A stretch of 64,000 nt of DNA from Thioclava electrotropha. Its GTDB lineage: Bacteria > Pseudomonadota > Alphaproteobacteria > Rhodobacterales > Rhodobacteraceae. Within the stretch, counting starts at the first letter, position 1; every line of letters starts with the position of its first letter. A program made the translations under genes and the position numbers. Location: assembly GCF_002085925.2 (NCBI RefSeq), contig NZ_CP053562.1:662001-726000 (forward strand), written 5' to 3'. Positions 19,093 to 63,665 of this stretch are shown here, one piece after another. The notes under the pieces were generated by a model. The model did not search any database, was not told the DNA's origin, and saw nothing but the letters and a program-made list of their open reading frames with translations.

Positions 19093-19126
19093 AAAGCTAG
19101 CTACAGTCTGTCATATAGCTAGTTTT
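19093..19126 (+). other. 13-8-13 palindromic site, copy 1 (oriT- or recombination-like)
   Basis: Arms AAAGCTAGCTACA and TATAGCTAGTTTT flank the 8-nt spacer GTCTGTCA, with one mismatch and one wobble pair. The site lies 106 bp upstream of the relaxase start. Same-architecture copies occur at 40985-41018 and 63632-63665. The architecture (13-bp arms ending in TATA around an 8-bp spacer) resembles lox-type sites; the location before a Mob/Pre gene favours an oriT. The T-rich right end also allows a weak bidirectional terminator. Confidence 0.55.
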
Positions 19127-19231
19127 TCCCGACAGACCCCCGGCGACGTTTTTCGCACCGGTCTCCTGCCCGTTTTTTTCAGGTCACCAACTTATCCTCG
19201 GAGGAGAGCCAAGGAAGAGAAGAGGTGATCC

Positions 19232-20479
19232 ATGAGCTATCAGTTTGTCCATATCGAATGTTATTCGGCCGCCCCGCGCAAAGTGAAGGGGGCGCTCGAC
19301 CAGGTGAACACGGCCGAGCAGGTCTTTGGCGAGGCGATGCGGGTGCCGCGCTATTCGCGTCATGTCGACGAGCCAAAGGCTCCCACCAAGCTTGACGGGA
19401 CGACGACGCTCGAAGAGCTCGAAGTGCTCTGGACCGAGAAGGTGGAGACGATCCGTGAGACCGTGAAAAGTGCGAAAGGCACGAGCTATCAGCGTCGGCT
19501 GCGCCGCGATGCGGCGACGCTTTATGCGGAAATCCATTCGCATCCGATGACCGCCGCGGCCTTAAGGGACGACTGGGAGCGCCATAAACGAGAGATTCTC
19601 AGCTGGGCGGAAAGGGTGCTCACGCATTTCGAAGCGCGTATGCCGCCGGGCGTGGAGTGGGTGGCGGTGCTGCATGTCGACGAGGCGCAGGTCCATCTCC
19701 ACATTCTCGCAGTCAATGCCGAAGACCCGAAACTTGATGCAAACAAACTACATGCGGGCAAGCGCGCAGCCGCGGAGGTGCGCGCCTCCCGCGAGATCCC
19801 CTCAGCCATCGTCTCTCTCCCGCGCCCTGCTCTCAGGCCGCTTCCGCCGAGACCGCGCAAACGGGCTCTCGGCAAACGACCGAAGACCATCGCGCGCAAC
19901 AAGGAGCATAATGCCGCGCGTCTCGAGGCTTGGCGCTCGGACTGTCGCACCGTGCGCGCCGACAATGCCGCGGCACTTGCAAGGTGGGAGGACGCGAACC
20001 GCGCTCATCTGAAGGCGGCTCGAAAACTGCGGGGTGAGGTTCCGGAAATGGTCGCCTACCGTGCGGCCATGCGTCAGTTCCAGGACGACTACTACGCGGC
20101 GGTCGGAGAGCACTGCGGGCTCTTGCGTGACGGGCCGCGAAAAGCGCGGCTAACGACGAAACAACATGCCGCGCGCAAGGCGATCGCGGAGCAGATGCGA
20201 GTGCAGTCTGCGGAGCTCGACCGAAGAACTCTCGAGTTTGCGCAAAAGCAAGCCGCCCTGCGTGAGGTCATCGCAGCACTTGCCGAAGGCCGTGCTGAAA
20301 TCTTCAGAGGGGACATCGTGATGGAAGATATGCCTGCCTCCCTCAAGGAACTCGGTGAGAAGAAGGAGGATTGGATGATCCAAGCTGTTCTCGATCTCCT
20401 AGTGCGTGCAGGGGAGGTCGGGGTTGGTGCGCTGCAGCTGTCGCGCGATGACGAGATTGATGGGCTTGGATTAGGTTAG
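19232..20479 (+). CDS. Mob/Pre-like relaxase (mobilisation protein)
   Basis: This 415-residue protein has the hallmark histidine triad of Mob/Pre (MOBV-like) relaxases in VLHVDEAQVHLHILAVN near residues 147-163, i.e. H-x-DE-x3-H-x-H, preceded by a WAERVLTHFEARMPPGVEW segment. Such enzymes nick oriT and can also catalyse site-specific recombination between such sites. The C-terminal half is rich in basic residues and coiled-coil helices (about 210-370). A GAGGTGATCC segment precedes the ATG. Upstream lies a structured noncoding region with a 13-8-13 palindrome, a candidate oriT. A second copy of the gene begins at 63759. No other mobilisation gene is adjacent; Fic follows convergently. Confidence 0.75.
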   Translation: MSYQFVHIECYSAAPRKVKGALDQVNTAEQVFGEAMRVPRYSRHVDEPKAPTKLDGTTTLEELEVLWTEKVETIRETVKSAKGTSYQRRLRRDAATLYAEIHSHPMTAAALRDDWERHKREILSWAERVLTHFEARMPPGVEWVAVLHVDEAQVHLHILAVNAEDPKLDANKLHAGKRAAAEVRASREIPSAIVSLPRPALRPLPPRPRKRALGKRPKTIARNKEHNAARLEAWRSDCRTVRADNAAALARWEDANRAHLKAARKLRGEVPEMVAYRAAMRQFQDDYYAAVGEHCGLLRDGPRKARLTTKQHAARKAIAEQMRVQSAELDRRTLEFAQKQAALREVIAALAEGRAEIFRGDIVMEDMPASLKELGEKKEDWMIQAVLDLLVRAGEVGVGALQLSRDDEIDGLGLG

Positions 20480-20491
20480 GTCTGGTGGAAT

Positions 20492-22000
20492 TCAGTCGGG
20501 AGGCCAGGCTGCCGCATAGGCCTCCTCGATCAGGGTGACTTCCTCTTCCGTCAGCGCCGAGAACTCCTTGCGCAAGGCACGTCCGGATAGCGTGCCGTTG
20601 CCTTGTTCCAGAAAACCTCGCAGTAAATCCACCATTGGGGCGGGCATGTCCAGCAACGCGTCGACACTGGATTTGAACCGATCATAGCGCTCAATGTAGT
20701 CGATTTCCCTGGGGAGGTCCTGCTCGACCGTTTCCCTGACACAATCGGCGATGAACTCGGCATGCATGGTGCTGTCGAAGAAGCGGTAAAGCGCCGCTGT
20801 GTCCGACAGGACTTCCACATTCCCCCGGGCCGTGGGCTTCCACTCGATGAACTCCATCATAGGTTCCGAGACGGATTTTAGAACATCGCTGTATTCCTCG
20901 ATACGCCGGTAGACCACGACGCTGATCGGGAAGACCAGGCCCGTCGGATTGAACCCGCCACGGGCCAAAACATGGTGCAGCAGATATCGATGGAGACGAC
21001 CGTTCCCATCCTCGAAGGGGTGGATGTAGACAAAACCGAACGACACCGCGGCCGCGACCACCATCGGATCAACACCGCCCTCGAGAGCCCGCGTTTCATA
21101 GAGCGCGATTCCCTCCAGGAGGTCAGCCAGATCTTCATACCGGGCGCTGATATGCACCGGCTCCGGGACCCTTCCGTCGCGGCTGTGGCTACCAATGAAG
21201 CCACCCTCCTTGCGAACCCCCATCTTCACGAAGCGTGTATCTCGCAAGACAATTTGTTGCAGGCGCTCAAGCTCGCCCAGCGATAGCGGATGGCTTCCCG
21301 CCTCGCCGATCGCGCGTGCCCAGCGGGCTGCTCGTTGGGGGCCTGGTTTCTCCTGCTCGATCGCAAAGGAAGCCTTGGAATCGTCAAGCAACAGGAAAGC
21401 CGCGGCGCGCGATACGATATGTTGCGGCGCCTTTCCTGTGATCTCCCTTGCCAGAGCTGGCAGTTGCAGCGCGATCAGCTTCTCGAGCCTCGGGGATCTC
21501 TGCACGAGAGGACAAAAGGCCGGGGTGCCGGGCAGGTTATCGATAATCTTGTGGCGGGCCGATCGAATCCCTGGATCGATAGCGAAATAGATGTCTGGAT
21601 CGAGCGCGGGTTGATACTTCACTTTCCCAAGGTCAGGCAGATCCAGCATCTCGCCTGTCAGCCATTCCCAAAAGAACCAAAGCCGACGCGCGACGAGGCC
21701 GGTCGCTCCCATCAGGGCTCGGGAAATCTCGGAATGGTCTGCAACCCTTGTGACCTCATGCATGATCCGAAGATCGATGCCTTCGTTCTTGATGGCAAAC
21801 GTCAGGTGATCGAAGACGGCCTCACCCGGCCATTGCTCCGATCGAAATATTTCCCATTCCGGTTCGGACCGGCGTTCGTGGTGGTCGGAGACAAGAGCCA
21901 GGCGGCGCGGCATGGGCGTGCGCAGACCGAGCTCACTGATCAGCCAGCCATATCCTGCAATCCGGCCTTGGCCGGGAAGCTTGCGTCCGTAGAAAGTCAT
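20492..22000 (-). CDS. Fic family protein (putative AMP transferase)
   Basis: This roughly 502-residue protein contains the full Fic motif HPFEDGNGR near residue 327, so it could transfer AMP (or another nucleotide group) onto a protein hydroxyl. A segment SFAIEQ near residue 211 resembles the (S/T)xxxE(G/N) inhibitory helix of class II Fic proteins except for a Gln in place of Gly/Asn. An N-terminal domain of about 200 residues and a C-terminal winged-helix-like region (residues 440-500) complete the protein. ATG at 22000 was chosen over two upstream GTG codons; the Shine-Dalgarno is weak. It is convergent with the relaxase gene, 12 bp apart. Its role (toxin, regulator) is open. Confidence 0.85.
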   Translation of the reverse strand: MTFYGRKLPGQGRIAGYGWLISELGLRTPMPRRLALVSDHHERRSEPEWEIFRSEQWPGEAVFDHLTFAIKNEGIDLRIMHEVTRVADHSEISRALMGATGLVARRLWFFWEWLTGEMLDLPDLGKVKYQPALDPDIYFAIDPGIRSARHKIIDNLPGTPAFCPLVQRSPRLEKLIALQLPALAREITGKAPQHIVSRAAAFLLLDDSKASFAIEQEKPGPQRAARWARAIGEAGSHPLSLGELERLQQIVLRDTRFVKMGVRKEGGFIGSHSRDGRVPEPVHISARYEDLADLLEGIALYETRALEGGVDPMVVAAAVSFGFVYIHPFEDGNGRLHRYLLHHVLARGGFNPTGLVFPISVVVYRRIEEYSDVLKSVSEPMMEFIEWKPTARGNVEVLSDTAALYRFFDSTMHAEFIADCVRETVEQDLPREIDYIERYDRFKSSVDALLDMPAPMVDLLRGFLEQGNGTLSGRALRKEFSALTEEEVTLIEEAYAAAWPPD

Positions 22001-22527
22001 CACCACGCCACGAAAATAATCACCCTCATGGCGTTTATTTAGATTCTTTTCACCAAAGCTACAAGATCATCCGCGTAGAGAACCGTCACCTCGTGTCGAT
22101 TTTCTTCACTTTAAGCGCTTTTCTTTCGAATTTCGTCACTGTTGCCGCCGCCAAGCGCTCGCAGGCGGCTCAGGTCCGGTCTCGCGGGCGAAATTTTGGG
22201 ACGTTCTCTCCAAACACGCGCTTCATGCTGGCGTTGAACATGCCAAACCCGACGCGGCTGTCATCGACCGAACTGCAGGAAGCGGCGCGCAAGGATGGAC
22301 CACTCGAAGAGATCCTTTCCGTCGTGCGTCTCTTCCAGTGGTTGCTGCCGGGGCTTGCGGTCAACGTGGCTTTCCTGCGCGACCAGTTGCAGGAATTGTA
22401 AGGCGCACAGAGGCGCGGCCAGACGCTCGACTGCATCGTGCGCGCCCGTCGAGGAAAGACAGCAACGGGCCGGAAGTGGATAGGCGTTATGGGCAGACTT
22501 GTTCAAGCGCACTGCGGATCGATCCCG
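22001..22527. other. Intergenic region without a supported gene
   Basis: 527 bp between the Fic start and the LysR gene end. A plus-strand ORF at 22093-22401 (102 codons) contains a helical tail but no Shine-Dalgarno and no family resemblance; it may be a relic. Promoter elements for the Fic gene presumably lie at the left end. Nothing else was recognised. Confidence 0.4.
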
Positions 22528-23418
22528 TTATTGCGATCCGTAAACCTCACTCAGCCAGTCGAGAAATGCCCCAAGTCTTCGAAGCCCGGCCGCACGCGTC
22601 ATGTAGACGGCCTGAACCGGCAGCGGCTCGACGCTGAGCCTGCCGGGAAACAGTTCGACCAGCCGCCCCTCGGCAATGTCCCGCGCTACCATGAAATCGG
22701 AAAACCGCGCGACCCCGAGACCCGCGCAGACGAGCGCCCGGGCGGCCTCGCCATTCCCCGCTGTGACCGAGGGCGCGAGCGCAACCGGCTCGGGGTCATC
22801 GTCGAAGCGCAGTTCGTTGATATGAGCGGGGCTCTGGAAGCGCACCTGCCGGAGCCGCGTCAAATCTTGCGGCGTCTCGGGGGGGCCCATACGTGCGAGA
22901 TAATCCGGCGCGGCCACGAGCCGCCAGACAGCATAACCCAAAGGACGGCGCAAAAGCTCGCTATCGCCCAGCGTGCCCATACGGATTGCGACATCGGCCT
23001 GCGCGCCGATCAGGTCGACGACGCTATCGGTCATCTCGATGCTGATCTCGATTTCGGGATAGCGCGCGATGAAATCGGGCAGGGCGGGGGCGAGCACATG
23101 CAGCACCCAAGGCACCGGCGCGTTGATCCGAAGCGGCCCGCGCGGCGTGCCCCCTTGCGTCGCGAGATCGGCCAGCGCCTCGGTCCGGTCGACGATCTCG
23201 CGCGCGGCTTCGAGCAGGTCGCGCCCCTCCGGGGTCAGTTCCAGCGCACGCGTCGTGCGACGCAGAAGGACCACCGAAAGCCGCTCTTCCAATCGGCTCA
23301 CCGTGCGGCTCAGCGTCGAAGGCGCCACACCCAAGCGCCGCGCGGCTTCGGCGAAACCGCCCGCCTCGACGACGCTCACGAAGGTCGCCAGATCGCGGGT
23401 TTGCGGCAATTCGTGCAT
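22528..23418 (-). CDS. LysR family transcriptional regulator
   Basis: This 296-residue protein has an N-terminal winged helix (FVSVVEAGGFAEAARRLGVAPSTLSRTVSRLEERL, residues about 12-46) and a periplasmic-binding-like effector domain (about 90-290, beginning GPLRINAPVPW). The ATG at 23418 gives the normal LysR length; the ORF extension to 23601 crosses the divergent gene's 5' region. It faces an MFS transporter gene across 97 bp, the standard arrangement for a LysR protein controlling a divergent efflux gene. The effector is unknown. It belongs to the CrgA-like subgroup by its DNA-binding domain. Confidence 0.95.
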   Translation of the reverse strand: MHELPQTRDLATFVSVVEAGGFAEAARRLGVAPSTLSRTVSRLEERLSVVLLRRTTRALELTPEGRDLLEAAREIVDRTEALADLATQGGTPRGPLRINAPVPWVLHVLAPALPDFIARYPEIEISIEMTDSVVDLIGAQADVAIRMGTLGDSELLRRPLGYAVWRLVAAPDYLARMGPPETPQDLTRLRQVRFQSPAHINELRFDDDPEPVALAPSVTAGNGEAARALVCAGLGVARFSDFMVARDIAEGRLVELFPGRLSVEPLPVQAVYMTRAAGLRRLGAFLDWLSEVYGSQ

Positions 23419-23515
23419 TTTGCGCAATGATCCTTTCCAGACCTGTCTGTTCACGCAAAGGCTGACCCATGACAGATGGGATGTCGATATCCAATTCAAC
23501 CAAAGGGAGATCGAC

Positions 23516-24694
23516 ATGCCTCTTGCTCTCTGGGCGCTCACGATCAGCGCCTTTGCCGTCGGCACGACCGAGTTCGTGATCGTCGGCCTCATCCCCACCA
23601 TCGCCCAGTCGCTGGGTGTGCCGCTGCCCTCGGCGGGGCTTCTCGTGAGCCTTTACGCGCTTGGCGTCACCATCGGTGCGCCGGTGCTGACCGCGCTTGC
23701 CGACCGGCCGCCGCGCAAGACGCTGCTGCTGGCGCTTCTGGCGCTGTTTGTCGGCGGCAACGCCTTCGCAGCGGTTGCCCCAAGCTTCGGCGCGCTGATC
23801 GCGGCACGCTTCATCACCGGCCTCGCACATGGGGTGTTCTTCGCCATCGCCTCGACCATTGCGACGAGCCTCGTGCCGCGCGAAAAGGAATCGAGCGCGA
23901 TCGCCATGGTCTTCATGGGGCTCACTGTCGCGCTGGTGACCGGCGTGCCCTTTGGCACATGGATCGGGGCGCATTTCGGCTGGCACGCGACCTTCCTCGG
24001 CGTCGTCGGGCTGGGCGTGATCGGCTTCATCGCCTCGGCGCTTCTGGTGCCCTCGAACCTGCCGCGCGGTGCGTCGCCGTCGCTGAAGCAACAGCTGAGC
24101 GTTCTGACCTCGCCGCGGCTTTTGCTGGTCTATCTGATCACGGCCGTGGGCTATGGCGGCAACTTCATCGCCTTCACCTACCTAGCGCCCATGCTGACCG
24201 ATGTGACGGGGCTGAGCGCCGGATCGGTGAGCCTCGTGATCCTGCTCTATGGGATCTCGGTCGCGGTCGGGAATATCGCGGGCGGCAAGCTGTCCGACCG
24301 GATCGGGCCGGTGCCGGCGCTCACGCTGATCTTCGCGGGGCTAGCCGCGTCGCTCGCGCTGCTGGGGCTGAGCCTCGCCACGCCCTGGGCCGCCATCGCG
24401 GTGGTGCTGTTCTGGGGTGGTTTCGCCTTCGGCAACGTGCCGCCCCTGCAGGCCTATGTTGTCGATATCGCGCGCAGCGTTGCGCCGGGGGCGGTCGATG
24501 TGGCCTCTGGCCTCAATATCGGGGCCTTCAACCTCGGCATCGCGGGCGGGGCCTGGGTCGGCGGTCTCGCGGTCGATCAGCTCGGCCTGTCGGTCACGCC
24601 CTTCCTCGGCGCGGTCGTCGTGCTGGGCGCGCTGGCGCTGACCCGGTTGAGCGGACGTCTTGCGAAGAGTGCGTTTCCACATCCAGCGGAGTGA
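23516..24694 (+). CDS. MFS efflux transporter (DHA1-type, AraJ/YdhP-like)
   Basis: This 392-residue inner-membrane protein has 12 predicted hydrophobic segments and starts with LALWALTISAFAVGTTEFVIVGL, the typical opening of the sugar-efflux/drug-efflux DHA1 subgroup. The loop between helices 2 and 3 has the ALADRPPRKTLL pattern (MFS motif A variant). ATG at 23516 follows AAGGGAGA. The divergent LysR regulator suggests substrate-induced expression. The substrate is not predictable; an export role for an arabinose-like sugar or small antimicrobial is possible. Confidence 0.92.
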   Translation: MPLALWALTISAFAVGTTEFVIVGLIPTIAQSLGVPLPSAGLLVSLYALGVTIGAPVLTALADRPPRKTLLLALLALFVGGNAFAAVAPSFGALIAARFITGLAHGVFFAIASTIATSLVPREKESSAIAMVFMGLTVALVTGVPFGTWIGAHFGWHATFLGVVGLGVIGFIASALLVPSNLPRGASPSLKQQLSVLTSPRLLLVYLITAVGYGGNFIAFTYLAPMLTDVTGLSAGSVSLVILLYGISVAVGNIAGGKLSDRIGPVPALTLIFAGLAASLALLGLSLATPWAAIAVVLFWGGFAFGNVPPLQAYVVDIARSVAPGAVDVASGLNIGAFNLGIAGGAWVGGLAVDQLGLSVTPFLGAVVVLGALALTRLSGRLAKSAFPHPAE

Positions 24695-24856
24695 TACGGT
24701 TTGAGCCCTGAAATTGGGGCGGGCGTGCGCATGAAGACAGAGGGGCGCCCGCCCCTCCCTCACACTCACGAATTTTGCAGCCCGATGCCTATCGCCTGTT
24801 TGATACTGGCTTCAGGCATTAGTCGAAGTCACTTTCGCGTTTCACCACGGTCTGAC

Positions 24857-24892
24857 ACCGGACGTTCGCAACACTTGGCACTAACGTCCGGT
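24857..24892. repeat. 10-bp perfect inverted repeat downstream of the MFS gene
   Basis: ACCGGACGTT (24857-24866) and AACGTCCGGT (24883-24892) are separated by 16 nt. There is no T-run after either arm. It may be a stem-loop at the 3' end of the MFS transcript or a remnant of a mobile element. The rest of 24695-25064 holds no recognisable gene. Confidence 0.4.
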
Positions 24893-25064
24893 TCGGGCCA
24901 GATGGCCCACCCAGCTCTGCTGTGCCCGTCAAGCACGTCGAGCTGCTGAAGCTACGTGGCAGTATTTTCGTCCCCGCGCAGTTGCTTCACCTTCCATAGA
25001 TACCCTGCCCTTTCGAGAGAGAGAACGTTTGACGGCTACCACTTTATCTTGGGAAGGCTGCACA

Positions 25065-25496
25065 TCATTGCCCTTGCTCATCGGTAAAGAAGGGATCGTC
25101 GGCGTTCTTCAGGCTGCACACGTTGCCGTCGGGGTCGAGGAACGCGCCGGTCGTGCCCCAGCTGTGCATTTTGACTTCGACCGGCACGCCCTGAGTCTCC
25201 AGCAGGCGCGCCGCAGCCTTCACGTCTGAGACGTTGAAGCGCAAGGCAACCGGGTTCTGAGAGATGTCTTTCCGGGCATTCTCTGCGCGTCCGCCGGTCT
25301 CGATCATCAGATATCCGTCGCCAAAGCGAAGGCAGGTCAGCCCCGGCTTTTCATACCAGAGCGGCAGGCCGAGCTTGGTTTGATAGAACTCCACGCAGGC
25401 CTCGTAGCGCTCGGTGAAGAGGATGAGGCCATGACATTCGATCATGTCTGCAAACTTGTTCGCGGGGCCGGTTTCGCTGTCGATTTCCATGGGCAT
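25065..25496 (-). CDS. VOC (glyoxalase/bleomycin-resistance fold) protein
   Basis: This 143-residue protein has a vicinal-oxygen-chelate fold pattern: HGLILFTERYEACVEFYQ with LGLPLWYEKPGL, and in the second half VALRFNVSDV followed by FLDPDGNVCSLK. The YGRP/PDGN loop is characteristic. ATG at 25496 has AGGAGATCAGAG just upstream; a second ATG lies two codons later. It is probably the second gene of a small minus-strand unit read from a MerR/SoxR-type promoter near 25.9 kb. Specific substrate unknown. Confidence 0.88.
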   Translation of the reverse strand: MPMEIDSETGPANKFADMIECHGLILFTERYEACVEFYQTKLGLPLWYEKPGLTCLRFGDGYLMIETGGRAENARKDISQNPVALRFNVSDVKAAARLLETQGVPVEVKMHSWGTTGAFLDPDGNVCSLKNADDPFFTDEQGQ

Positions 25497-25524
25497 CTCT
25501 GATCTCCTGTCAGTGCAATTCATC

Positions 25525-25737
25525 TTATCGCGTCGGGTTCGGCGGCGCGGGTGGTAGGCCAACGTCGCGCCGGATATGCGAGCGAAGGGTAGTCGTGGCG
25601 ATCGATTTGGGCCTCCGCCGTGACTGCAGCAACGTCCACAGCAGGGCGTGAAGGACAGACGTCGCTCCATGGCGGCGAAGCAAGCAATGAAGTTCATCGC
25701 GCAGCTGCAAAGCTTGCGGGGGCGCCTCTGGCTTCAT
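25525..25737 (-). CDS. Small hypothetical protein upstream of the VOC gene
   Basis: A 70-residue ORF ends 28 bp before the VOC start, on the same strand and downstream of the SoxR-type promoter. It reads LRDELHCLLRRHGATSVLHALL and ends SHIRRDVGLPPAPPNPTR; the last part recalls the LxxHLRRDIGL ending of DUF1127-like small proteins. No clear Shine-Dalgarno is visible before the ATG at 25737, so the start or even coding status is uncertain. Confidence 0.5.
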   Translation of the reverse strand: MKPEAPPQALQLRDELHCLLRRHGATSVLHALLWTLLQSRRRPKSIATTTLRSHIRRDVGLPPAPPNPTR

Positions 25738-25873
25738 GATGCGCTGCCCACGGTCAAACGGTCGCGCCGGCTGCCGACTTCTCCTGGCATGCGAAAAGTC
25801 TGCATCTTTTGAGCCGAAGGATAAGCGTGACTCTGTCGCATGGTTTCCCTCCGTTGACTGTCGGACGAGCGAC

Positions 25874-25904
25874 GTTCTAAAAGTTGAAGCTAACTTTAGG
25901 TCAA
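25874..25904 (-). promoter_or_regulatory. SoxR/MerR-type promoter with 19-bp spacer
   Basis: On the minus strand a TTGACC -35 element (25904-25899) and a TAGAAC -10 element (25879-25874) are separated by exactly 19 bp. The spacer holds the inverted half-sites CTAAAGTT and AACTTT. A 19-bp spacer is the signature of MerR-family activated promoters, and SoxR is encoded just 28 bp to the right, divergently. It would drive the small ORF and the VOC gene. Confidence 0.65.
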
Positions 25905-25931
25905 TGCTGAAATTCGAGAAACAACCGAACC

Positions 25932-26372
25932 ATGGAAACGACGCTGACCATCAACCAGATTTCACGCCGCAGCGGCATCGCCTCCTCGGCGCTGCGCTAT
26001 TACGAGGAGCGCGGGCTCATCTCGTCCGAGCGGGCTGGCTCCGGGCACAGACGCTTCCCGCGCCACGTTCTGCGGCGCCTCGCCTTTATCACTTTCGCTC
26101 AGACCCTCGGCATGACGCTTGAAGAGATCAAAACCGAACTCGACAAGCTGCCGACAGACCATGTTCCGACCGGGGAAGACTGGGCGGCGCTGTCAGAGAA
26201 GTGGACGCACCGGGTCGACGAGCAGATTGCCCAACTTCAGCGCCTGCGAAAGACCCTGACCGCTTGCATCGGCTGCGGCTGCCTTTCTTTGAAATCCTGC
26301 AAGATGTTCAATCCCAAGGATGAACTGCGTCAGCGAGGGACCGGTCCAAGAAAGTGGATCGAGGATATCTGA
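25932..26372 (+). CDS. soxR: Redox-sensitive regulator SoxR
   Basis: This 146-residue MerR-family protein has the N-terminal HTH (TINQISRRSGIASSALRYYEERGLI), a dimerisation helix, and the C-terminal SoxR iron-sulfur motif CIGCGCLSLKSC at about residues 117-128, with four Cys for a [2Fe-2S] cluster, followed by MFNPKDELRQRGTGPR. It senses redox-cycling compounds. It is divergent from the small ORF/VOC unit, with the 19-bp-spaced promoter in between, so direct control and probable autoregulation are inferred. Confidence 0.95.
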   Translation: METTLTINQISRRSGIASSALRYYEERGLISSERAGSGHRRFPRHVLRRLAFITFAQTLGMTLEEIKTELDKLPTDHVPTGEDWAALSEKWTHRVDEQIAQLQRLRKTLTACIGCGCLSLKSCKMFNPKDELRQRGTGPRKWIEDI

Positions 26373-26608
26373 GACTGTAGCCAAGGCAGGGCTTAAAAAA
26401 TGGCGCGATCACCCTAAAGAGTTGGGTGAATTCGCAATAGACGTCATCTTTCAAAGCGCTATCCCGTTTGACGCTGAATGCGCCCACCGACCGTCGACAT
26501 GTCGGGCATCGGCGTTTCGGATTGCGTGAGCAGTTGACGCTCACGTTGCTCCTTGTGAGGCTTTGCCCCGGAAGTCGGCCCGATCGGGGCATGTCGAGGG
26601 GGCTACGA

Positions 26609-27016: not shown

Positions 27017-27389
27017 TATGACAATCTTGCGTTCAATCGGATAGAGCAGCTAACCGATGTAGAGACGAACGACTACTATGTCCGTTCTCCCGTCCAACAG
27101 CTCGGAAAAGGAAGTCCGGGGCTAAGTCCGGTTCAGGGAAGCTGCGCGGCGACATTCGAGCGGCCTCGATCGCCGGCTTTGAACTTGGCGCTACGGGTCT
27201 GGTGACTCTGGGCTCGAAGCGGCCATGCGGCGTCGCGGTAAGCCTGTCTTGAGACCCGCCCGGCCGTATTGCTCTGCCCCCGGAAAGTTGGACCGTTTGA
27301 AACTGGAGTTTTCAAAGAAGTTTTCCTGGCTGGGAGAGGAGCGCAACCGCATGAAAGCATCGAAGGTCACGGAAGCGCGAGACAGGCGT
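27017..27389. other. Intergenic region without a supported gene
   Basis: About 370 bp between the GFA gene and the higA relic. The short ORFs on both strands have no Shine-Dalgarno sequence and no recognisable domain. I see nothing else. Confidence 0.4.
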
Positions 27390-27979: not shown

Positions 27980-27989
27980 GCGTAAGCTA

Positions 27990-29065: not shown

Positions 29066-29067
29066 GT

Positions 29068-54492: not shown

Positions 54493-54585
54493 TAACCAGA
54501 TATATGCGGGATGCAAATCATTTTTGTCCAGCTGGTCGAGATGGGGCGACGGGCGAGCACGAAGAACAAGAGTGGGGGGAGAGGC

Positions 54586-56004: not shown

Positions 56005-56033
56005 CGGACTTGGGACGAGATGAGGAATGAGTG

Positions 56034-56750
56034 ATGGATAATGAGTTCGAGCAGATTGCCCGCACGGATCACCTGCCAACGCGGATCGCCACGCAGTTCG
56101 CCAAGCGGATTTATGATGGCGTGCTGAAAGCCGGTGACAAGCTGCCGACAGAGCATGCGATGTCCAAGACCTTCGGCGTGAGCCGCACCGTCGTGCGCGA
56201 AGCGATTGCGCAACTGCGCAACGAAGGGCTGGTCGAGACGCGACAGGGTGTCGGTGCCTTCGTGGTGGAGCGCAAAGCACGCCAGATCCGTCTCGAGGAC
56301 GGCAAGAAGATGGACCGGCACGCCTTCAACGATCTCTATCAGGTGCGCGTGCCGCTGGAGATGGAAGCGGCTGCACTCGCAGCAGTGAACCACACCGAGG
56401 CCCAGATGGCGGCGCTCGACGCCGCGATGATGGGCCTGTCGGGTATTCGTGATTGGGGCAAGTCGGGCGTCACCGCCGATCTCGATTTCCACCGCATCAT
56501 CGCCGAGGCGACGGGCAATGACTATTTCGTGCAATTCGTCACCGCGATCTCGGAGCGGATCAGCCATGTCATTACGATCGCGCGCGCCGAGGGGCAGCTC
56601 GACGATGTGATCGCGTGGACGATCGAAGAGCACGGGGCGATTTGCGAGGCCATTCGAGCGCGCAATCCCGCCGCGGCACGGGCCGCGATGCAGCGCCATC
56701 TGGTCAACTCCGCGGAGCGTGTCGGCCTGCAGTTCGAGTTCGTCGAGTAA
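56034..56750 (+). CDS. GntR family regulator, FCD (FadR-like) subgroup
   Basis: This 238-residue regulator has the winged helix RIYDGVLKAGDKLPTEHAMS, then KTFGVSRTVVREAIAQLRNEGLV, and an FCD domain with metal/ligand His in DLDFHRIIAEATGNDYF and EEHGAICEAI. ATG at 56034 follows GAGGA; a GTG one codon earlier is an alternative. Lies between two transcription units sharing the TGTTGTCTGA motif, so it most likely controls the denD, FAD-oxidase and xylX units in response to a sugar acid. Confidence 0.93.
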   Translation: MDNEFEQIARTDHLPTRIATQFAKRIYDGVLKAGDKLPTEHAMSKTFGVSRTVVREAIAQLRNEGLVETRQGVGAFVVERKARQIRLEDGKKMDRHAFNDLYQVRVPLEMEAAALAAVNHTEAQMAALDAAMMGLSGIRDWGKSGVTADLDFHRIIAEATGNDYFVQFVTAISERISHVITIARAEGQLDDVIAWTIEEHGAICEAIRARNPAAARAAMQRHLVNSAERVGLQFEFVE

Positions 56751-56810
56751 GCTGAGCATCACATACGCTTGAGCCGCATAGGCGGCGCAGAATAGGGGTT
56801 GTATTTTAGG

Positions 56811-56839
56811 TTGTAGTGTTGTCTGACATCATATGTCAG
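56811..56839. promoter_or_regulatory. Candidate shared regulator site, copy 2 with palindrome
   Basis: TTGTAGTGTTGTCTGA overlaps a perfect inverted repeat CTGACAT-CAT-ATGTCAG (56823-56839), upstream of the xylX-like gene. Length and symmetry suit a GntR/FCD operator. The left part is shared with 54476-54492. Confidence 0.55.
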
Positions 56840-56891
56840 TGCGGTATGAGGAGATACTGCGCCCGACAACATGGAGGGGGAATTGGCACCT

Positions 56892-58049
56892 ATGCTCAAT
56901 TTGGAAACGGGCCGTATTTTGCCCGAGGATGACGCACGCGCCCTGCTGATCGGCCGGGTCTGGTCGAAGGCGGAAGGCGGGCCCTGCGTAACCGTTCTGC
57001 GCAACGGAATCCTGCACGATCTTTCTCATATCGCAGCGACGGTTTCCGGGCTTCTGGAGTGCGACGATTTGCAAGCATGCCTGAGGCGCGACGATCTGCC
57101 GGTGCTCGGAGCTTTGGAGGGTTTCATGTCCGGCGAGGCCGGTCATCTCTTGGCGCCGATCGATCTTCAGGCGGTGAAGGCCGCGGGCGTCACCTTCGCT
57201 GAAAGTATGCTGGAGCGCGTGATCGAAGAACGCGCCGGCGGCAACCTTCAGGCCGCGCAGGACATTCGCGCCAAGCTTGCTCCGGTGATCGGTGAGAACC
57301 TGCGCGATATCTCTGCCGGATCGGAAGCCGCTGCGAAAGTGAAGGCACTGCTGCAGGAGATGGGCCTCTGGTCGCAATATCTCGAGGTCGGCATTGGTCC
57401 GGACGCAGAGATCTTCACGAAGGCCCAGCCCATGTCATCTGTCGGATGCGGTACCGAGATCGGCATCCACCCGATTTCGGACTGGAACAATCCCGAGCCC
57501 GAGATTGTGCTGGCGATCCGCTCGGATGGCACGATTCTTGGTGCGACGTTGGGCAATGACGTGAACCTGCGCGACGTCGAAGGTCGCTCGGCGCTCCTGC
57601 TCGGCAAGGCCAAGGATAACAATGCCTCCTGCGCGATCGGGCCGTTCCTGCGGATTTTCGACGACCATTTCACGCTCGCCGATGTCGAGACCGCGGTCGT
57701 CACTCTGCGCGTGCGCGGCACCGACGGGTTCGAGATGGCGGGTGAGAGCCGCATGGAGGCGATCAGCCGCTCGCCCGCCGAACTCGCCCGGCAGATGCTC
57801 AATCGCAGCCACCAATATCCCGACGGCGCGGTCCTGTTCCTCGGCACGCTTTTCGCGCCGGTGCAGGATCGCCGTGCGCCAGGGCAGGGCTTCACCCACG
57901 AGACCGGCGACGAGGTCGAGATTGCTTCGCCGCGGCTCGGGACTCTGGTGAACCGCGTCGCTCGCTGTGATGCCTGTCCCGAATGGGTCTTTGGCAGCCG
58001 CGCGCTGATTGCCAACCTGGTCGCCCGCGGCCTCGGCGACAGGGTGTAA
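56892..58049 (+). CDS. XylX-like 2-keto-3-deoxy-pentonate dehydratase (FAH family)
   Basis: This 385-residue fumarylacetoacetate-hydrolase-fold enzyme resembles Caulobacter XylX: KAAGVTFAESMLERVIEERAG is followed by SQYLEVGIGPDAEIFTKAQP, NNPEPEIVL (metal-binding Glu residues), GNDVNLRDVEGRSALLLGKAKDNNASCAIGP (in two parts) and the closing GSRALIANLVARGL. It would dehydrate a 2-keto-3-deoxy-pentonate to 2-oxoglutarate semialdehyde. The ATG at 56892 gives the family start; an ATG at 56871 lies within the GGAGGGGG Shine-Dalgarno itself. First gene of an operon with TRAP transporter and KGSA dehydrogenase. Confidence 0.9.
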   Translation: MLNLETGRILPEDDARALLIGRVWSKAEGGPCVTVLRNGILHDLSHIAATVSGLLECDDLQACLRRDDLPVLGALEGFMSGEAGHLLAPIDLQAVKAAGVTFAESMLERVIEERAGGNLQAAQDIRAKLAPVIGENLRDISAGSEAAAKVKALLQEMGLWSQYLEVGIGPDAEIFTKAQPMSSVGCGTEIGIHPISDWNNPEPEIVLAIRSDGTILGATLGNDVNLRDVEGRSALLLGKAKDNNASCAIGPFLRIFDDHFTLADVETAVVTLRVRGTDGFEMAGESRMEAISRSPAELARQMLNRSHQYPDGAVLFLGTLFAPVQDRRAPGQGFTHETGDEVEIASPRLGTLVNRVARCDACPEWVFGSRALIANLVARGLGDRV

Positions 58050-58053
58050 GCGG

Positions 58054-58590
58054 ATGCAGAAACTTATCGCACTCTTCTACCGAGGCCTCGACATCCTGCT
58101 GGCGCTTCTGCTCGCCGGGATGGCTCTGATGGTCTTTCTCAATGTCATCCTGCGCTACGCGTTCGATAGCGGCATTGCCGTCTCGGAGGAAATGTCGCGC
58201 TTCTTCTTCGTCTGGCTGACCTTCATCGGCGCCGTCGTCGCACACCATCACCATATGCATATGGGCATGGAGACAGTGGCCGCGGCCTTCGGTCGTCGCG
58301 GACGCATGGTCCTGATGGGGCTGAGCGAGATCGTGATCATCGGCTGTTCGGCGGTGCTCTTTATCGGCACATGGAAGCAGCTGCCGATCAACATGACGAT
58401 GGGCGCTCCGGTAACGATGATGCCGATGGGCTTTGTCTACGGCACCGGGCTGTTCACGGGTGCCGGGATCATCCTCATCTCGCTCGAGCGGCTCTTCCGG
58501 TTGCTGACCGGTCGGATGAGCGACGCCGAGTTCGCCCGCTTCGCAGGCCAACATCATGACGCTGAAGATATCGAGGGGCGTGCATCATGA
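58054..58590 (+). CDS. dctQ: TRAP transporter small permease (DctQ-type)
   Basis: This 178-residue protein has four hydrophobic helices (LLALLLAGMALMVFLNVILRYAF, then WLTFIGAVVAHHHHMHMGM region and two more) and the family pattern SEEMSRFFFVWLTFIGAVVA. It is the small membrane subunit of a tripartite ATP-independent importer for organic or sugar acids. ATG at 58054; overlaps the large permease gene by ATGA. Confidence 0.92.
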   Translation: MQKLIALFYRGLDILLALLLAGMALMVFLNVILRYAFDSGIAVSEEMSRFFFVWLTFIGAVVAHHHHMHMGMETVAAAFGRRGRMVLMGLSEIVIIGCSAVLFIGTWKQLPINMTMGAPVTMMPMGFVYGTGLFTGAGIILISLERLFRLLTGRMSDAEFARFAGQHHDAEDIEGRAS

Positions 58591-59864
58591 CCCTCGTTGT
58601 CTTTCTTGTCGCGCTCATCGGCGCCATGGCCATCGGGGTTCCTGTTGCCTTCGCTCTGATCTTCTGCGGCATCGCGCTGATGGAATATCTGGGGATGTTC
58701 AACACCCAGATCATCGCCCAGAATATGGCGATCGGGGCGAATACCTTCACCCTTCTCGCGATCCCGTTCTTCATTCTCGCAGGCGAACTGATGAATGCCG
58801 GCGGGCTCTCGCGCCGGATCATCGACTTCGCGATCGCCTGCGTCGGGCATATCCGCGGCGGTCTGGGCATCGTCGCCATCATGGCGGCGGTGATCCTCGC
58901 CTCGATCTCTGGCTCGGCTGCCGCCGATAGTGCCGCACTCGCTGCGATCTTGCTGCCGATGATGAGCCGCGCCGGCTATGACGTGCCGCGTTCCGCCGGC
59001 CTGATCGCCGCAGGTGGCGTGATCGCGCCGGTCATCCCGCCCTCGATGGCCTTCATTATCTTCGGCGTCGCGAGCAACCTTTCGATCTCCAAGCTGTTCA
59101 TGGCTGGCATCGCACCTGGTGTCCTGATGGGGACCGTGCTGATCGTCACTTGGCTCTTCGTTGCCCGGAAGGACAAGGCCGAGACGCTGCCGCGTGCCAG
59201 CTGGGGCGAGAAAGGCCGGGCAGGGATGCGCGCAATCTGGGCGCTTGGCATGCCGGTGATCATTCTCGGCGGTATCAAGTTCGGTGTCGTCACCCCGACC
59301 GAGGCTGCGGTGATCGCGACCTTCTATGCGCTCTTCGTCGGGCTCTTCGTCTATCGCGAACTCACCTTGAAATCCCTGCCGGGCGTGTTCATCGCGGCAG
59401 GTCGTACAACGGCGGCGATCATGTTCCTTGTCTGTGCCGCGCTGGTCTCGGCTTGGCTCATCACGATGGCGAATATCCCCGCCGAGCTCGGCAGCATCAT
59501 CGAACCGCTGATCGAGCATCCGAAGCTGCTCATGGCCTTCATCATGGTGCTGATTATTATGGTCGGCACCGCCCTCGATCTCACGCCGACGATCCTGATC
59601 CTGACCCCGGTGCTCTTGCCGCTGGTGCAGAAGGCGGGGATCGATCCGATCTACTTCGGTGTGATGTTCATCATGAACTGCTGCATCGGACTTCTGACGC
59701 CGCCTGTCGGTGTCGTCCTCAACGTGGTCAGCGGGGTCGGGAGGATCCCCCTTGGCCGTGTGATCATCGGTGTCTGGCCCTTCCTCGTGGCCGAGATCCT
59801 GGTGCTCTTCGTTCTCGTGGCCTTTCCGCAGATCGTGCTCGTTCCGGCACATTGGTTCTACTGA
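58587..59864 (+). CDS. dctM: TRAP transporter large permease (DctM-type)
   Basis: This 425-residue protein has about 12 membrane helices and the DctM signature segments: AIPFFILAGELMNAGGLSRRII, ASISGSAAADSAALAAILLPMM, AAGGVIAPVIPPSMAFIIFG and the C-terminal LTPPVGVVLNVVSGVGRIPLG (quoted in parts). It forms the transport channel, driven by Na+ or proton gradient. Overlaps dctQ, and dctP follows after 50 bp. Confidence 0.95.
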   Translation: MTLVVFLVALIGAMAIGVPVAFALIFCGIALMEYLGMFNTQIIAQNMAIGANTFTLLAIPFFILAGELMNAGGLSRRIIDFAIACVGHIRGGLGIVAIMAAVILASISGSAAADSAALAAILLPMMSRAGYDVPRSAGLIAAGGVIAPVIPPSMAFIIFGVASNLSISKLFMAGIAPGVLMGTVLIVTWLFVARKDKAETLPRASWGEKGRAGMRAIWALGMPVIILGGIKFGVVTPTEAAVIATFYALFVGLFVYRELTLKSLPGVFIAAGRTTAAIMFLVCAALVSAWLITMANIPAELGSIIEPLIEHPKLLMAFIMVLIIMVGTALDLTPTILILTPVLLPLVQKAGIDPIYFGVMFIMNCCIGLLTPPVGVVLNVVSGVGRIPLGRVIIGVWPFLVAEILVLFVLVAFPQIVLVPAHWFY

Positions 59865-59914
59865 CCGGTCACGGGTCAACATTTGCCAACGTTAATTTCC
59901 AAAGGGAGGAAACA

Positions 59915-60943
59915 ATGAAAACCAAGGCAATTAAAGCAGCGCTTCTGCTTGGCACGATGGTAGCGGTCGCAAGCCCTGCCGCAGCCGAATTCCACGACCG
60001 CACGATCCGGATTTCCAACGGTGTCGCCGAGAACCACCCGGTGCATAATGGCGTCGATGCGATGCAGCAGTGTCTTGACGACAAGACCGGCGGCAAGATG
60101 AAGCTTCAGGCTTACTGGAGCGGTTCGCTTGGCGGCGACCTTCAGGCGACCCAGGCGCTTCGCTCAGGCACGCTCGACGCGGTGGTGACCTCGTCCTCGC
60201 CGCTTGTCGGGATCGAACCAGCGCTCGGTGTGTTTGATCTGCCGTTCCTGTTCCAGACCAACGAGGAAGCCTACGCCGTCATGGATGGCGATTTCGGCAA
60301 GTTCCTGAATGACAAGCTGGCCGACAAAGGGCTGGTCAACCTCGCCTATTGGGAGAACGGGTTCCGTAACGTGTCGAACTCGAAGCGTCCGATCACCAAG
60401 TGGGAAGACCTCAAGGGCATCAAGATCCGCGTGATGCAGAACAATATCTTCCTTGACACCTTCGACAATCTCGGTGCCAACGCGACGCCGATGGCCTTCG
60501 GCGAAGTGTTCTCTGCACTGGAGACCGGCGCGATCGATGCACAGGAAAACCCCTATGTCACGATCGACACTTCGAAGTTCTACGAAGTGCAGAAATATAT
60601 CAGCGAGACGAAGCACGCGTATACGCCCTTCCTCTTCCTGTTCTCGAAGCCGATCTTCGATACGTTCGATCCCGACGAACAGGATGCGCTGCGCACCTGT
60701 GCAGTCAAGGGCGGCTCAGTCGAGCGCAACGTGATCCAGGATCTCAACAAGAAATCGCTCGAGAAGATGGAAAAGGCCGGGATCAAGTTCAACAAAGTCT
60801 CGCCTGAAGAGCTGGCTCGCATGCGTGAGAAGTCGCAGGTCGTCTACGACAAGCACCGCGACGAAATCGGTGGCGACGTCATCGATCGGGTGCAGAAGAC
60901 GATCGACGGGCTTCGCTCCGAGAAGAAAGCGAGCAGCAACTGA
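59915..60943 (+). CDS. dctP: TRAP transporter substrate-binding protein (DctP-type)
   Basis: This 342-residue periplasmic protein has a signal peptide (ending AAAE-F near residue 25) and the DctP fold: RISNGVAENHPVHNGVDAM, PFLFQTNEEAYAVMDG, LKGIKIRVMQN with the conserved Arg that binds the ligand carboxylate, and PMAFGEVFSALETGAIDAQEN. The Arg supports a carboxylate substrate such as an aldonate. AAGGGAGGAAACA precedes the ATG. Confidence 0.95.
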   Translation: MKTKAIKAALLLGTMVAVASPAAAEFHDRTIRISNGVAENHPVHNGVDAMQQCLDDKTGGKMKLQAYWSGSLGGDLQATQALRSGTLDAVVTSSSPLVGIEPALGVFDLPFLFQTNEEAYAVMDGDFGKFLNDKLADKGLVNLAYWENGFRNVSNSKRPITKWEDLKGIKIRVMQNNIFLDTFDNLGANATPMAFGEVFSALETGAIDAQENPYVTIDTSKFYEVQKYISETKHAYTPFLFLFSKPIFDTFDPDEQDALRTCAVKGGSVERNVIQDLNKKSLEKMEKAGIKFNKVSPEELARMREKSQVVYDKHRDEIGGDVIDRVQKTIDGLRSEKKASSN

Positions 60944-61062
60944 GGCTGCGTAATGTAGTCTCAAGCTGATCCGCCCATTCCCTCGGGCGGATCAAGAGGC
61001 GGGCCATGTCCTCCGGCCCGCCTCTCCCTTTTTGGTCACGACACGGACACGAGGATAGGGCG

Positions 61063-61824
61063 ATGAACACATTCGATCTCTCAGGCAAAACCGCACTGGT
61101 CACCGGCTCGTCTCGCGGTCTGGGCAGAACCTTCGCGGAGGCGCTGGCGGCCGCGGGCGCGCACGTGGTGCTCAACGGGTTTGATGCCGCACGGCTCGAG
61201 CAGACTCGAAAGGAAATGATCGAACAAGGCTACGACGTGAGCGCCGCGGCCTTCGACGTCTCCGACGAGGCCGCCGTGCGCGCGGCGTTCGAGAGGCTCG
61301 ACGCGGAGGGGCGCACCCCGGACATTCTGGTGAACAATGCCGGTATCCAGTTGCGCCGTCCGATGTTGGAACTGAGCGCGGCGGACTGGCAGCGCGTGCT
61401 CGATACCAACCTGACCTCTGCATTCCTTTGTGGCCGCGAAGCAGCTTCGCGGATGATCGCGAAAGGGGGCGGCAAGATCATCAATATCGGCTCGCTGATG
61501 AGCGACCTCGCCCGCGTCACGGTCGCGCCCTACACGGTCGCCAAAGGGGGCGTCAAAATGCTGACGCGGTCGATGGCGGCGGAGTGGGCCGGCTCGAACA
61601 TTCAAGCGAACGCCATCGGACCCGGCTACATGATGACCGACATGACGCGCCCGCTTCAGGAAGATCAGGATTTCGACAGCTGGGTCCGCGGGCGCACACC
61701 CGCCGGGCGCTGGGGAAAGCCCGAGGAATTGCAGGGCGCGGTGGTATTTCTCGCCTCGTCGGCCTCGGATTTCGTGAACGGACAAATCCTCTACATCGAC
61801 GGCGGCATGACGGCGGTTCTTTGA
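61063..61824 (+). CDS. SDR oxidoreductase (gluconate 5-dehydrogenase-like)
   Basis: This 253-residue short-chain dehydrogenase has TGSSRGLGRTFAEAL near residue 15, NNAGIQLRRPM near residue 90, Ser in INIGSLMSD and Tyr-x3-Lys in APYTVAKGGVKM near residue 155. RSMAAEWAG and AIGPGYMMTDMT are typical of gluconate/idonate 5-dehydrogenases. NADP preference may follow from the basic/polar motif. ATG at 61063 was preferred over an upstream ATG at 61006 lacking domain content. Located between dctP and the semialdehyde dehydrogenase. Confidence 0.92.
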   Translation: MNTFDLSGKTALVTGSSRGLGRTFAEALAAAGAHVVLNGFDAARLEQTRKEMIEQGYDVSAAAFDVSDEAAVRAAFERLDAEGRTPDILVNNAGIQLRRPMLELSAADWQRVLDTNLTSAFLCGREAASRMIAKGGGKIINIGSLMSDLARVTVAPYTVAKGGVKMLTRSMAAEWAGSNIQANAIGPGYMMTDMTRPLQEDQDFDSWVRGRTPAGRWGKPEELQGAVVFLASSASDFVNGQILYIDGGMTAVL

Positions 61825-61901
61825 AACCGCGCGCATTGAACGAAGGGTCTCTGCGACGCCGTTCTGCGTCGGGCCCGGTGACGAATTAACAAGGAGACAT
61901 C

Positions 61902-63416
61902 ATGACCTTCACCCCGCACGGACAACACCTGATCGCCGGCGAATGGATCGGCACCGACAAAACGTTCTCTTCCGACCCAGCCCATGGGCCGAGCCATGAG
62001 TTCTGCGTCGGCACGGTCGAGATGGTGAACGCGGCCTGCGAGGCAGCTGAGGAGGCATTCTGGGACTACGGCTATTCGAGCCGTGAGACCCGCGCCAAGT
62101 TCCTCGAGACTATCGCCGACGAGATCGACGCACGCGGCGAGGCGATCACCGAGATCGGCACGCAGGAAAGCGGTTTGCCCGAGGCGCGCCTGAATGGCGA
62201 GCGCGGGCGCACCGTGGGCCAGCTGCGTCTCTTTGCGAGCCACATCCGCAACGGCGACTATCTCGACCGCCGCCATGACGAGGCACTCCCCGATCGCCAG
62301 CCGCTGCCGCGCCCGGATCTGCGGATGATGCAGCGTCCGATCGGTCCGGTCGCGGTCTTCGGCGCGTCGAACTTCCCGCTGGCGTTTTCGACAGCGGGCG
62401 GCGACACCGCCGCCGCGCTGGCCGCAGGCTGCCCGGTCGTGGTGAAGGGCCACTCTGCCCATCCAGGCACCGGCGAAATCGTGGCCGAGGCGATCAAGGC
62501 CGCAGTCGAGAAGACCGGCATGCCCAAAGGCGTCTTCAGTCTGATCCAGGGCGGACGCCGTGACGTGGGGCAAGGGCTCGTGCAGCATCCGCTGATCAAG
62601 GCGGTGGGCTTCACCGGTAGCTTGGGCGGGGGCCGTGCGCTGTTCGATCTGTGTGCCCAACGCCCCGAGCCGATCCCCTTCTTCGGTGAACTCGGTTCGG
62701 TCAACCCGATGTTCCTGCTGCCCGAGGCCGCAAAGGCGCGCGGCGCCGAGATCGGCACCGGCTGGGCAGGCTCGCTGACGATGGGCGCGGGCCAGTTCTG
62801 CACCAACCCGGGCATCGCCGTGGTCGAGGAAGGCCCGGCAGGCGACGCCTTCGTCGCCGCCGCGAAAGAAGCGCTGTCGGCTTCCGGCCCGCAGGTCATG
62901 CTGACAGACGGCATCGCGCAGGCTTATCGCGACGGCAAGGACCGGTTCGATACCCGCAATTCCGTGACTCCGGTGCTGACGACCGAGCAAGAGGGCCGCA
63001 ACGCCTCCCCGAACCTCTACGAGACGAGCGCCGAGAACTATCTGCAGGACCATGCGCTTGGCGAAGAAGTCTTCGGGCCGCTCGGTCTTGTGGTCCGGGT
63101 CTCTGATCCGGCACAGATGGTCGATCTTGCGAAGGGCTTCGAGGGCCAGCTGACAGCAACCATGCATCTCGATGACGGCGATGCGGAGCTTGCCCGCAAG
63201 CTGCTGCCGGTGCTCGAGCGCAAGGCGGGCCGCGTGATGGCCAACGGCTTCCCGACCGGCGTGGAGGTCTGTGACGCAATGGTCCATGGCGGGCCCTACC
63301 CGGCGTCCACGAACTTCGGCGCGACCAGCGTCGGCACGCTCTCGATCCGGCGCTTCCTGCGCCCGGTCTGCTACCAGAACATCCCCGAGGGCGTGCTGCC
63401 CGCGGACCTTGCGTGA
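61902..63416 (+). CDS. 2-oxoglutarate-semialdehyde dehydrogenase (KGSADH), aldehyde dehydrogenase
   Basis: This 504-residue aldehyde dehydrogenase oxidises 2-oxoglutarate semialdehyde to 2-oxoglutarate, the end of Weimberg-type pathways. Motifs: FGASNFPLAFSTAGGDTAAALAAG with PVVVKGHSAHPGTG, catalytic Glu in FFGELGSVNP near residue 265, catalytic Cys in GAGQFCTNPG near residue 305, and EEVFGPLGLVV. Length and C-terminal pattern fit the KGSADH subgroup. Its last 37 codons are repeated at 18.76 kb. Last gene of the island before the second relaxase copy. Confidence 0.93.
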   Translation: MTFTPHGQHLIAGEWIGTDKTFSSDPAHGPSHEFCVGTVEMVNAACEAAEEAFWDYGYSSRETRAKFLETIADEIDARGEAITEIGTQESGLPEARLNGERGRTVGQLRLFASHIRNGDYLDRRHDEALPDRQPLPRPDLRMMQRPIGPVAVFGASNFPLAFSTAGGDTAAALAAGCPVVVKGHSAHPGTGEIVAEAIKAAVEKTGMPKGVFSLIQGGRRDVGQGLVQHPLIKAVGFTGSLGGGRALFDLCAQRPEPIPFFGELGSVNPMFLLPEAAKARGAEIGTGWAGSLTMGAGQFCTNPGIAVVEEGPAGDAFVAAAKEALSASGPQVMLTDGIAQAYRDGKDRFDTRNSVTPVLTTEQEGRNASPNLYETSAENYLQDHALGEEVFGPLGLVVRVSDPAQMVDLAKGFEGQLTATMHLDDGDAELARKLLPVLERKAGRVMANGFPTGVEVCDAMVHGGPYPASTNFGATSVGTLSIRRFLRPVCYQNIPEGVLPADLA

Positions 63417-63631
63417 GTTTCGTCGGCTTTCGTTTCAGGCAGAACGATGAACAGCCTGAAGTGGTCGCTTAAGCTACACGCTCTTGAGGATGTTGCTGCG
63501 TTTGGGAGGCCTTCGATTTTTGGTCGGGCGAAGTCCTTCCCGGGGGGGGGCGAACTATGGTGCCCCCGCGTGCCGCCTTTTTTGAGCATAAGCCGACGCT
63601 GCCGCGCTGGCCCGCAATCCGGCCGTTCAAA

Positions 63632-63665
63632 AAAGCTAACTATAGTCTTTCGTATAGCTAGTTTT
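63632..63665 (+). other. 13-8-13 palindromic site, copy 3
   Basis: Arms AAAGCTAACTATA and TATAGCTAGTTTT flank the spacer GTCTTTCG (two differences from the other copies). One mismatch and one wobble in the arms. It lies 93 bp upstream of the second relaxase start. Confidence 0.55.

Follow-up and report, generated by a model that had tools for sequence, protein, structure and literature searches.

Palindromic MOBV-type oriT sequences as possible joining points of accessory gene blocks on the Thioclava chromosome

Genomic islands that carry a relaxase gene and an origin of transfer (oriT) and have direct-repeat borders are known as integrative and mobilizable elements (IMEs) and cis-mobilizable elements (CIMEs). 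Relaxase-mediated recombination at oriT was known before from plasmids and laboratory constructs; what is said here of these systems follows the accessible portions of the papers cited. The pMV158 relaxase MobM nicks 5'-TGTG/TTATAC-3', within inverted-repeat arms upstream of mobM, and a hairpin at the nick site was not detected on plasmid DNA (PMC5863519). A nick motif in an inverted-repeat loop upstream of the relaxase gene is common to the MOBV-type oriT, or recombination site A (RSA), of pMV158, pT181, and pE194 with their MobM or Pre proteins, and Pre was reported to form cointegrates at RSA independently of RecA (PMC5714925). TrwC can integrate DNA at a chromosomal oriT (PMC3264647), and in a Bacillus thuringiensis laboratory system built from plasmid pBMB0228 the Mob02281 relaxase excises a chromosomal cassette located between direct 24-bp core oriTs (PMC4902927). 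Among the matches listed in a literature search, whose scope mostly excluded subscription journals, none described a naturally occurring island on a chromosome with MOBV oriTs at its borders. Here we describe such a layout in Thioclava electrotropha (GCF_002085925.2), in a window of 64,000 nucleotides (positions 662001-726000 of NZ_CP053562.1) holding three palindromes with the features of MOBV-type oriTs, two of them followed by a gene for a MobV-like relaxase (mob). The locus is chromosomal, because the window sits on a 4.27-Mb contig of a 4.4-Mb genome with two contigs. We give an even chance to the reading that MOBV-type oriTs of chromosomal oriT-mob modules are joining points of accessory blocks, through recombination of oriT with oriT by the relaxase. 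The palindromes and the relaxase genes are located as follows ("solo" denotes an oriT without an adjoining mob).

19093..19126, plus strand: oriT 1, a 13-8-13 palindrome by sequence, with a conserved core at 19055-19129
19110/19111, plus strand: nick predicted in oriT 1 by analogy with pMV158
40985..41018, plus strand: oriT 2, solo and perfectly symmetric by sequence, predicted nick at 41002/41003
63632..63665, plus strand: oriT 3, by sequence probably decayed, spacer GTCTTTCG, T replacing G before the predicted nick
19232..20479, plus strand: mob1, intact gene for a MobV-like relaxase of 415 amino acids with the motif HVDEAQVHLH
63759..64000, plus strand: start of mob3, by sequence a frameshifted copy that runs out of the window
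18759..18868, plus strand: 3'-terminal remnant (about 110 bp) of an aldehyde dehydrogenase gene, to the left of oriT 1, as is also seen at oriT 3

All three 34-bp palindromes of a preliminary description of this DNA were found at their coordinates. The spacers of sites 1 and 2 are indeed identical, both reading GTCTGTCA, and the symmetry of site 2 is perfect; the arms end in TATA as described, except that the left arm of site 1 ends in TACA, and the distance to mob, given as 93-106 bp, measured 105 bp for site 1 and 93 bp for site 3. With two mismatches allowed at most, a 16-base core pattern matched the window at exactly three places, the three sites (shuffled windows gave a mean of 0.02 matches, with 0 of 100 reaching three). 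Similarly, a 28-base pattern with up to three mismatches found only these sites in the 4.4-Mb genome, all on the same strand, and its reversed control gave 0 matches. Sites 1 and 3 each lie within a copy of a longer repeat, at 18759-20465 and from 63299 on (86% identity over 1.7 kb), that also contains mob and the 3' end of the aldehyde dehydrogenase gene, and site 2 has only about 75 bp in common with site 1. Read beyond the window, mob3 consists of two overlapping pieces separated by a frameshift, and both site 3 and mob3 are probably decayed.

The palindromes are read as MOBV-type oriTs from the loop sequence, the geometry, and the placement ahead of a MobV-like gene. A G/T nick dinucleotide lies in the inverted-repeat loop as GTCTG/TCA in sites 1 and 2, site 3 having T before the nick, and by analogy with pMV158 the nick is predicted at GTCTG/TC. 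In a sample of 394 genomes of the family the exact 16-base motif occurred at 12 places in 9 genomes (reversed control, four places in four genomes), eight of them less than 200 bp from a mob gene, one at 1.6 kb and three solo, namely site 2, a site in genome G309 of another genus, and one in G013, whose mob is broken and about 108 kb distant. The ten places outside the T. electrotropha genome are not due to chance, because they have a long context in common, GGAGCGCC...GGGGCAGA, with few changes. In a sample of 390 genomes from the order there were nine places in seven genomes and none for the control. A protein match to mob was found in 26 of the 394 family genomes. Among its close relatives there (outside T. 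electrotropha, N-terminus present, E below 1e-70; n = 9) the motif lies upstream of all nine, within 200 bp in seven and in the remaining two at about 470 bp (with one mismatch) and about 1.6 kb. More distant MobV-like genes (about 30-38% identity) were without the exact motif; many have the similar ATAGTCGGTC at the same position and some have neither. Five of 16 Thioclava genomes carry sites of the T. electrotropha subtype, at nine places (the control matched once, in another genome). This search covered one site subtype only, and genome G395, scored there as lacking a site, has an oriT of another subtype with an adjoining mob, in a region that shows no long matches with the loci described here. 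The association of motif and mob across genera thus supports the earlier view of the sites as oriT-type sequences tied to Mob/Pre-like relaxase genes. Separately, a viral contig from IMG/VR (L175) carries a full oriT (match at 7715-7732, minus strand) followed by a match to mob residues 1-42 only.

The 13-8-13 geometry is also that of lox or dif sites of tyrosine recombinases, and a T-run past the right arm would suit a transcription terminator. We consider either reading extremely improbable, as the motif accompanies mob across genera and occurs only three times in 4.4 Mb, and the lox likeness drawn in the preliminary description was not borne out by protein-family scans of the window, which revealed no tyrosine recombinase among its 50 open reading frame (ORF) translations. 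Both readings were rejected, and the motif was found linked to relaxase genes and to breakpoints and not as a terminator behind unrelated genes.

The relaxase assignment is consistent with an HxDE...HxH metal-binding motif (H148, D150, E151, H155, and H157), which is invariant in 15 aligned proteins and aligns with HLDESTPHMH of MobM. A profile of the mob family gave one match up to E = 1 in PDB, the MobM relaxase 4lvi, at a weak E of 0.024. Unlike the pMV158-type sites, those of Thioclava are chromosomal and alphaproteobacterial, have longer arms of 13 bp and no clear counterpart of inverted repeat IR1, and include a solo copy that borders an island.

It had also been argued that symmetry of the palindromes is under selection, from a compensating change in the arms. 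This argument is weak, as it rests on one of 13 pairs, and across nine Thioclava sites that pair is C-G in three, G-C in three, and unpaired in three. In a shuffle test on these sites the share of paired cells was reached by 62 of 500 shuffles, the number of two-sided pairs by 474, and the covariation score by 14; at most, these values suggest selection for symmetry. Shuffled sequences folded as well as the site itself in 7 of 200 cases for site 1, 0 of 200 for site 2, and 161 of 200 for site 3. The predicted folds of the Thioclava sites consist chiefly of the long repeat around the predicted nick, and relatives show GGTAGCT...AGCTACC before it.

The evidence that the palindromes are borders comes from Thioclava genomes in which the locus is either filled or empty. 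We compared T. electrotropha, T. sediminum TAW-CT134, Thioclava sp. JE_KL1, G404, and T. pacifica DSM 10166. The left chromosomal flank is collinear in the first four (95-97% identity). G404 and T. pacifica have empty loci of the form flank F-oriT-mob, F being the sequence left of oriT in these genomes, and align with each other through the site over 10.8 kb (88.5% identity, two pieces), the T. pacifica mob match ending at residue 141. T. electrotropha, T. sediminum, and JE_KL1 have filled loci of the form F-oriT-GntR block-...-oriT-mob. The corresponding parts of the window, for which no strand is assigned, are listed here.

40862..40950: remnant of flank F, short and diverged (about 75% identity to G404)
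19127..40984: segment between oriT 1 and oriT 2, with mob1, a gene for a Fic protein, and accessory genes
41019..50409: island block 1, with genes for a GntR regulator, a sugar ABC transporter, and SDR, 3HCDH, and BKACE proteins
50776..63416: island block 2, with genes for an IlvD/Edd dehydratase, dehydrogenases, a TRAP transporter, and an aldehyde dehydrogenase

The initial 2 kb of this GntR block occur in 3 of the 16 Thioclava genomes and are always fused to a solo oriT. When identity is binned along the loci, the T. sediminum solo site and G404 agree on the left and drop to chance level on the right beyond the palindrome, and G404 and the JE_KL1 mob site agree on the right and drop to chance level on the left beyond about -40. 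To the right of the palindrome, the change points in six comparisons of a solo with a mob-linked site lie at 0, 3, 3, 3, 5, and 14 nt; to its left, those in ten comparisons of different left contexts lie at 19-35 nt. Most comparisons expected to share a flank extend for 225-400 nt; the left match of G404 and T. pacifica is 60 nt because of a gap, and gapped 250-nt bins stay at 85-88%. The direct observations are an oriT-like sequence and placement, filled and empty versions of the locus, and borders that lie within a few nucleotides of the palindrome on its right side and 19-35 nt from it on its left side, and the inference in the preliminary description that oriT or recombination sites delimit a catabolic island proved largely right. 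Its single island between copies 2 and 3 (41-63 kb) is an accessory segment delimited by oriTs as proposed; it consists, however, of two blocks and not one. Block 1 (41.0-50.4 kb) is common to three Thioclava genomes and block 2 (50.8-63.4 kb) to T. electrotropha and T. sediminum, with 19.3 kb between the blocks in T. sediminum and block 1 only at this locus in JE_KL1.

A relaxase could produce this arrangement as follows. The MobV-like relaxase would cut the plus strand in the loop, at GTCTG/TC, and join the resulting end to a second oriT cut in the same manner. A block with an oriT, present as a circle or as a transferred strand, would in this way recombine at a resident oriT, leaving flank-oriT-block-oriT-mob, and the reverse reaction between the direct oriT repeats would release the block. 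Such recombination accounts for direct duplicates of the site and for borders at the palindrome without an integrase. Nicking, catalysis by the relaxase, an intermediate in the form of a circle or strand, and mobility at the present day are all inferred. The T. sediminum pair of oriTs looks intact; the 41-63 kb segment of T. electrotropha is probably locked in its genome because site 3 and mob3 appear to have decayed. A near parallel to this proposal, the Mob02281 system, likewise has direct oriT repeats around a chromosomal cassette and a Mob gene. It was however built in the laboratory (PMC4902927), whereas the Thioclava layout is natural and carries catabolic genes.

The same loci can be explained by homologous recombination. 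Here, the oriT core and mob would merely be homology between resident and incoming mobilizable DNA, the blocks would have entered by ordinary RecA-dependent crossovers, and the core would have been kept because it is functional. We regard this as a strong rival, its probability falling appreciably short of even. In agreement with it, the mob genes and oriT-mob stretches are patchwork, and T. electrotropha and T. sediminum are 86-91% identical over oriT-mob (63550-64799) and 92-98% identical in neighboring bins. On the other hand, the tract common to solo and mob-linked sites is only about 70 bp at 85-89% identity, which is short for RecA, and the breaks at 0-14 nt from the right arm in six solo-vs-mob comparisons have a similar counterpart in another genus. 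That oriT is the island border is agreed by both explanations, and we place relaxase catalysis somewhat ahead of RecA.

A number of observations nevertheless weigh against joining by the relaxase. First, the family matches of the enzyme are weak. In contrast to the pMV158-type relaxases it falls below the family cut-offs, with 20.9 bits against Mob_Pre of Pfam (cut-off 25.5) and 24.7 bits against MobV of NCBIfam (cut-off 100); a PDB search with the single mob1 sequence gave only chance matches, MobM not among them. The catalytic residue of MobM, His22, has no evident conserved histidine counterpart at the likely place, where the 4lvi alignment stops short. Furthermore, the Thioclava genome G254 has a mob match limited to the C-terminal part (residues 208-415) and no motif. 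Second, the exchange itself may bear another signature. Between JE_KL1 and G404 there are 32 mismatches in 16783-17094 and then two over the next 8.4 kb; therefore one recent exchange ended within mob, some 280 bp to the right of where the palindrome begins, as RecA would leave it, and RecA is favored for this case. The sorting of arm haplotypes at the T. sediminum mob site is unlike that of a simple crossover in the loop. Third, of the three filled loci two have an F that is short or broken, namely at site 2 and in JE_KL1, the latter having fewer bases between F and the core than G404. Despite an expected common flank, the left match between site 2 and the T. sediminum solo site is 36 nt, and that between the T. 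sediminum and JE_KL1 solo sites 44 nt, with F resuming past a gap in JE_KL1. Fourth, the three filled loci are one common history and not three independent events, none of the compared loci contained the junction island end-oriT-GntR expected of an excised circle, and the insert that separates an oriT from its mob in G309 holds no second oriT at up to three mismatches. Finally, no match to the VirB4 family PF03135 was found in the T. electrotropha genome (other secretion families were not sought), and transfer would therefore need a helper. Apart from these points, the 8.4-kb tract of G404 (G404:C1:647095-655500; 17095-25500) has two differences from JE_KL1 beside about 4% divergence and encodes a LysR regulator, an ABC transporter, and an aldehyde dehydrogenase. 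It starts near oriT and runs in the presumed direction of transfer, one case that is no proof of transfer.

Other genera provide more examples of the layout, though none with an empty site. Two oriTs of G309, one solo and one linked to mob, have about 800 bp of upstream sequence in common (87% identity) and diverge about 9 nt past the right arm; in a search of the genus of G309 (two genomes) no second genome carried the motif. In G467 two direct oriT-mob modules, 96.2% identical, lie 19.7 kb apart with a heavy-metal P-type ATPase gene among those between them, and G480, of the same genus, has one module. A few hundred bp past the solo oriT, G309 encodes a 606-amino-acid AAA_15 ATPase (L119, 7753-9573, minus strand) with matches to defence families (best PADLOC match AriA, 8e-28), a position that corresponds to the leading region of a plasmid.

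The modules could also be taken for an insertion sequence (IS)-like rolling-circle element with the logic of IS91 and a MobV enzyme, the islands between copies having arisen by later shuffling. Modules of 1.63-1.68 kb with common ends in different contexts are indeed present in two genera (two in G203, two in G467, one in G480), the left end reading ...TTGTTTAACGATC and the right end ACACRAACGGCCC. This explanation is nonetheless improbable. Genomes with sites have only one to three oriT copies, module DNA matched 16 of 379 genomes, in several of them only marginally and over a short length, no empty target site was found, solo oriTs lack mob, and ACACRAACGGCCC was not seen after the aligned Thioclava mob genes. 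Rolling-circle logic and cargo beside the origin are shared with IS91 and ISCR (PMC5714925), from which the Thioclava system differs in enzyme family, low copy number, and lack of demonstrated termini.

Returning to recombination of oriT with oriT by the relaxase, it is tempting to extend it to an integrase-free island system, in which chromosomal MOBV oriTs serve as attachment sites, catabolic blocks are captured, stacked, and released by the resident relaxase as segments bounded by oriTs, and helper conjugation could carry the blocks onward to other cells. We put this forward tentatively, at somewhat less than an even chance. The Thioclava segment resembles IMEs and CIMEs in being an island with a relaxase, an oriT, and direct-repeat borders; it differs in that the border repeat is oriT itself and in that no integrase was found in the window, whose 50 ORF translations included neither integrase nor secretion proteins. 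No tRNA genes were present in the window or in seven neighbor loci, i.e., no tRNA-site integration was seen there, and no Rfam match within the window reached the gathering score. If relaxases naturally install and move chromosomal islands without an integrase, a class of islands escapes border prediction based on tRNA sites and integrases, and its markers would be solo oriTs. Plasmid matches of block 2 carry annotations as D-erythronate genes, those of its dehydrogenases as D-erythronate dehydrogenase. In the plasmid search no record covered 80% of either block, the best place reaching 13% coverage at 74.6% identity for block 1 and 41% at 74.5% for block 2.

A few other features of the window were observed. 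Directly adjoining mob1 is the gene for the Fic-domain protein (504 amino acids, 20492-22006, minus strand), which matches PDC-S24, a candidate defence family of PADLOC (E 1e-176). This gene is also present in G404, where it comes after a piece of about 0.2 kb from the 3' end of mob, at a distance of 20 kb from the intact copy. The segment between oriT 1 and oriT 2 contains other repeats at 79-89% identity (27385-27696/38574-38883 and 34619-34817/36438-36240). An IS605-type OrfB (TnpB-like) gene (17519-18352, minus strand) lies directly left of the aldehyde dehydrogenase remnant, and a 38-bp piece at 17472-17509 is repeated inverted at 50740-50777, the seam of the two island blocks. Finally, an element encoding a Mu-type transposase C-terminal domain, which appears to be IS21-like, is present at 12115-14650 of the window and, in opposite orientation, at 655535-658069 of the same contig; the two copies are 99.96% identical and separated by about 16 kb, and the stretch between them could invert.

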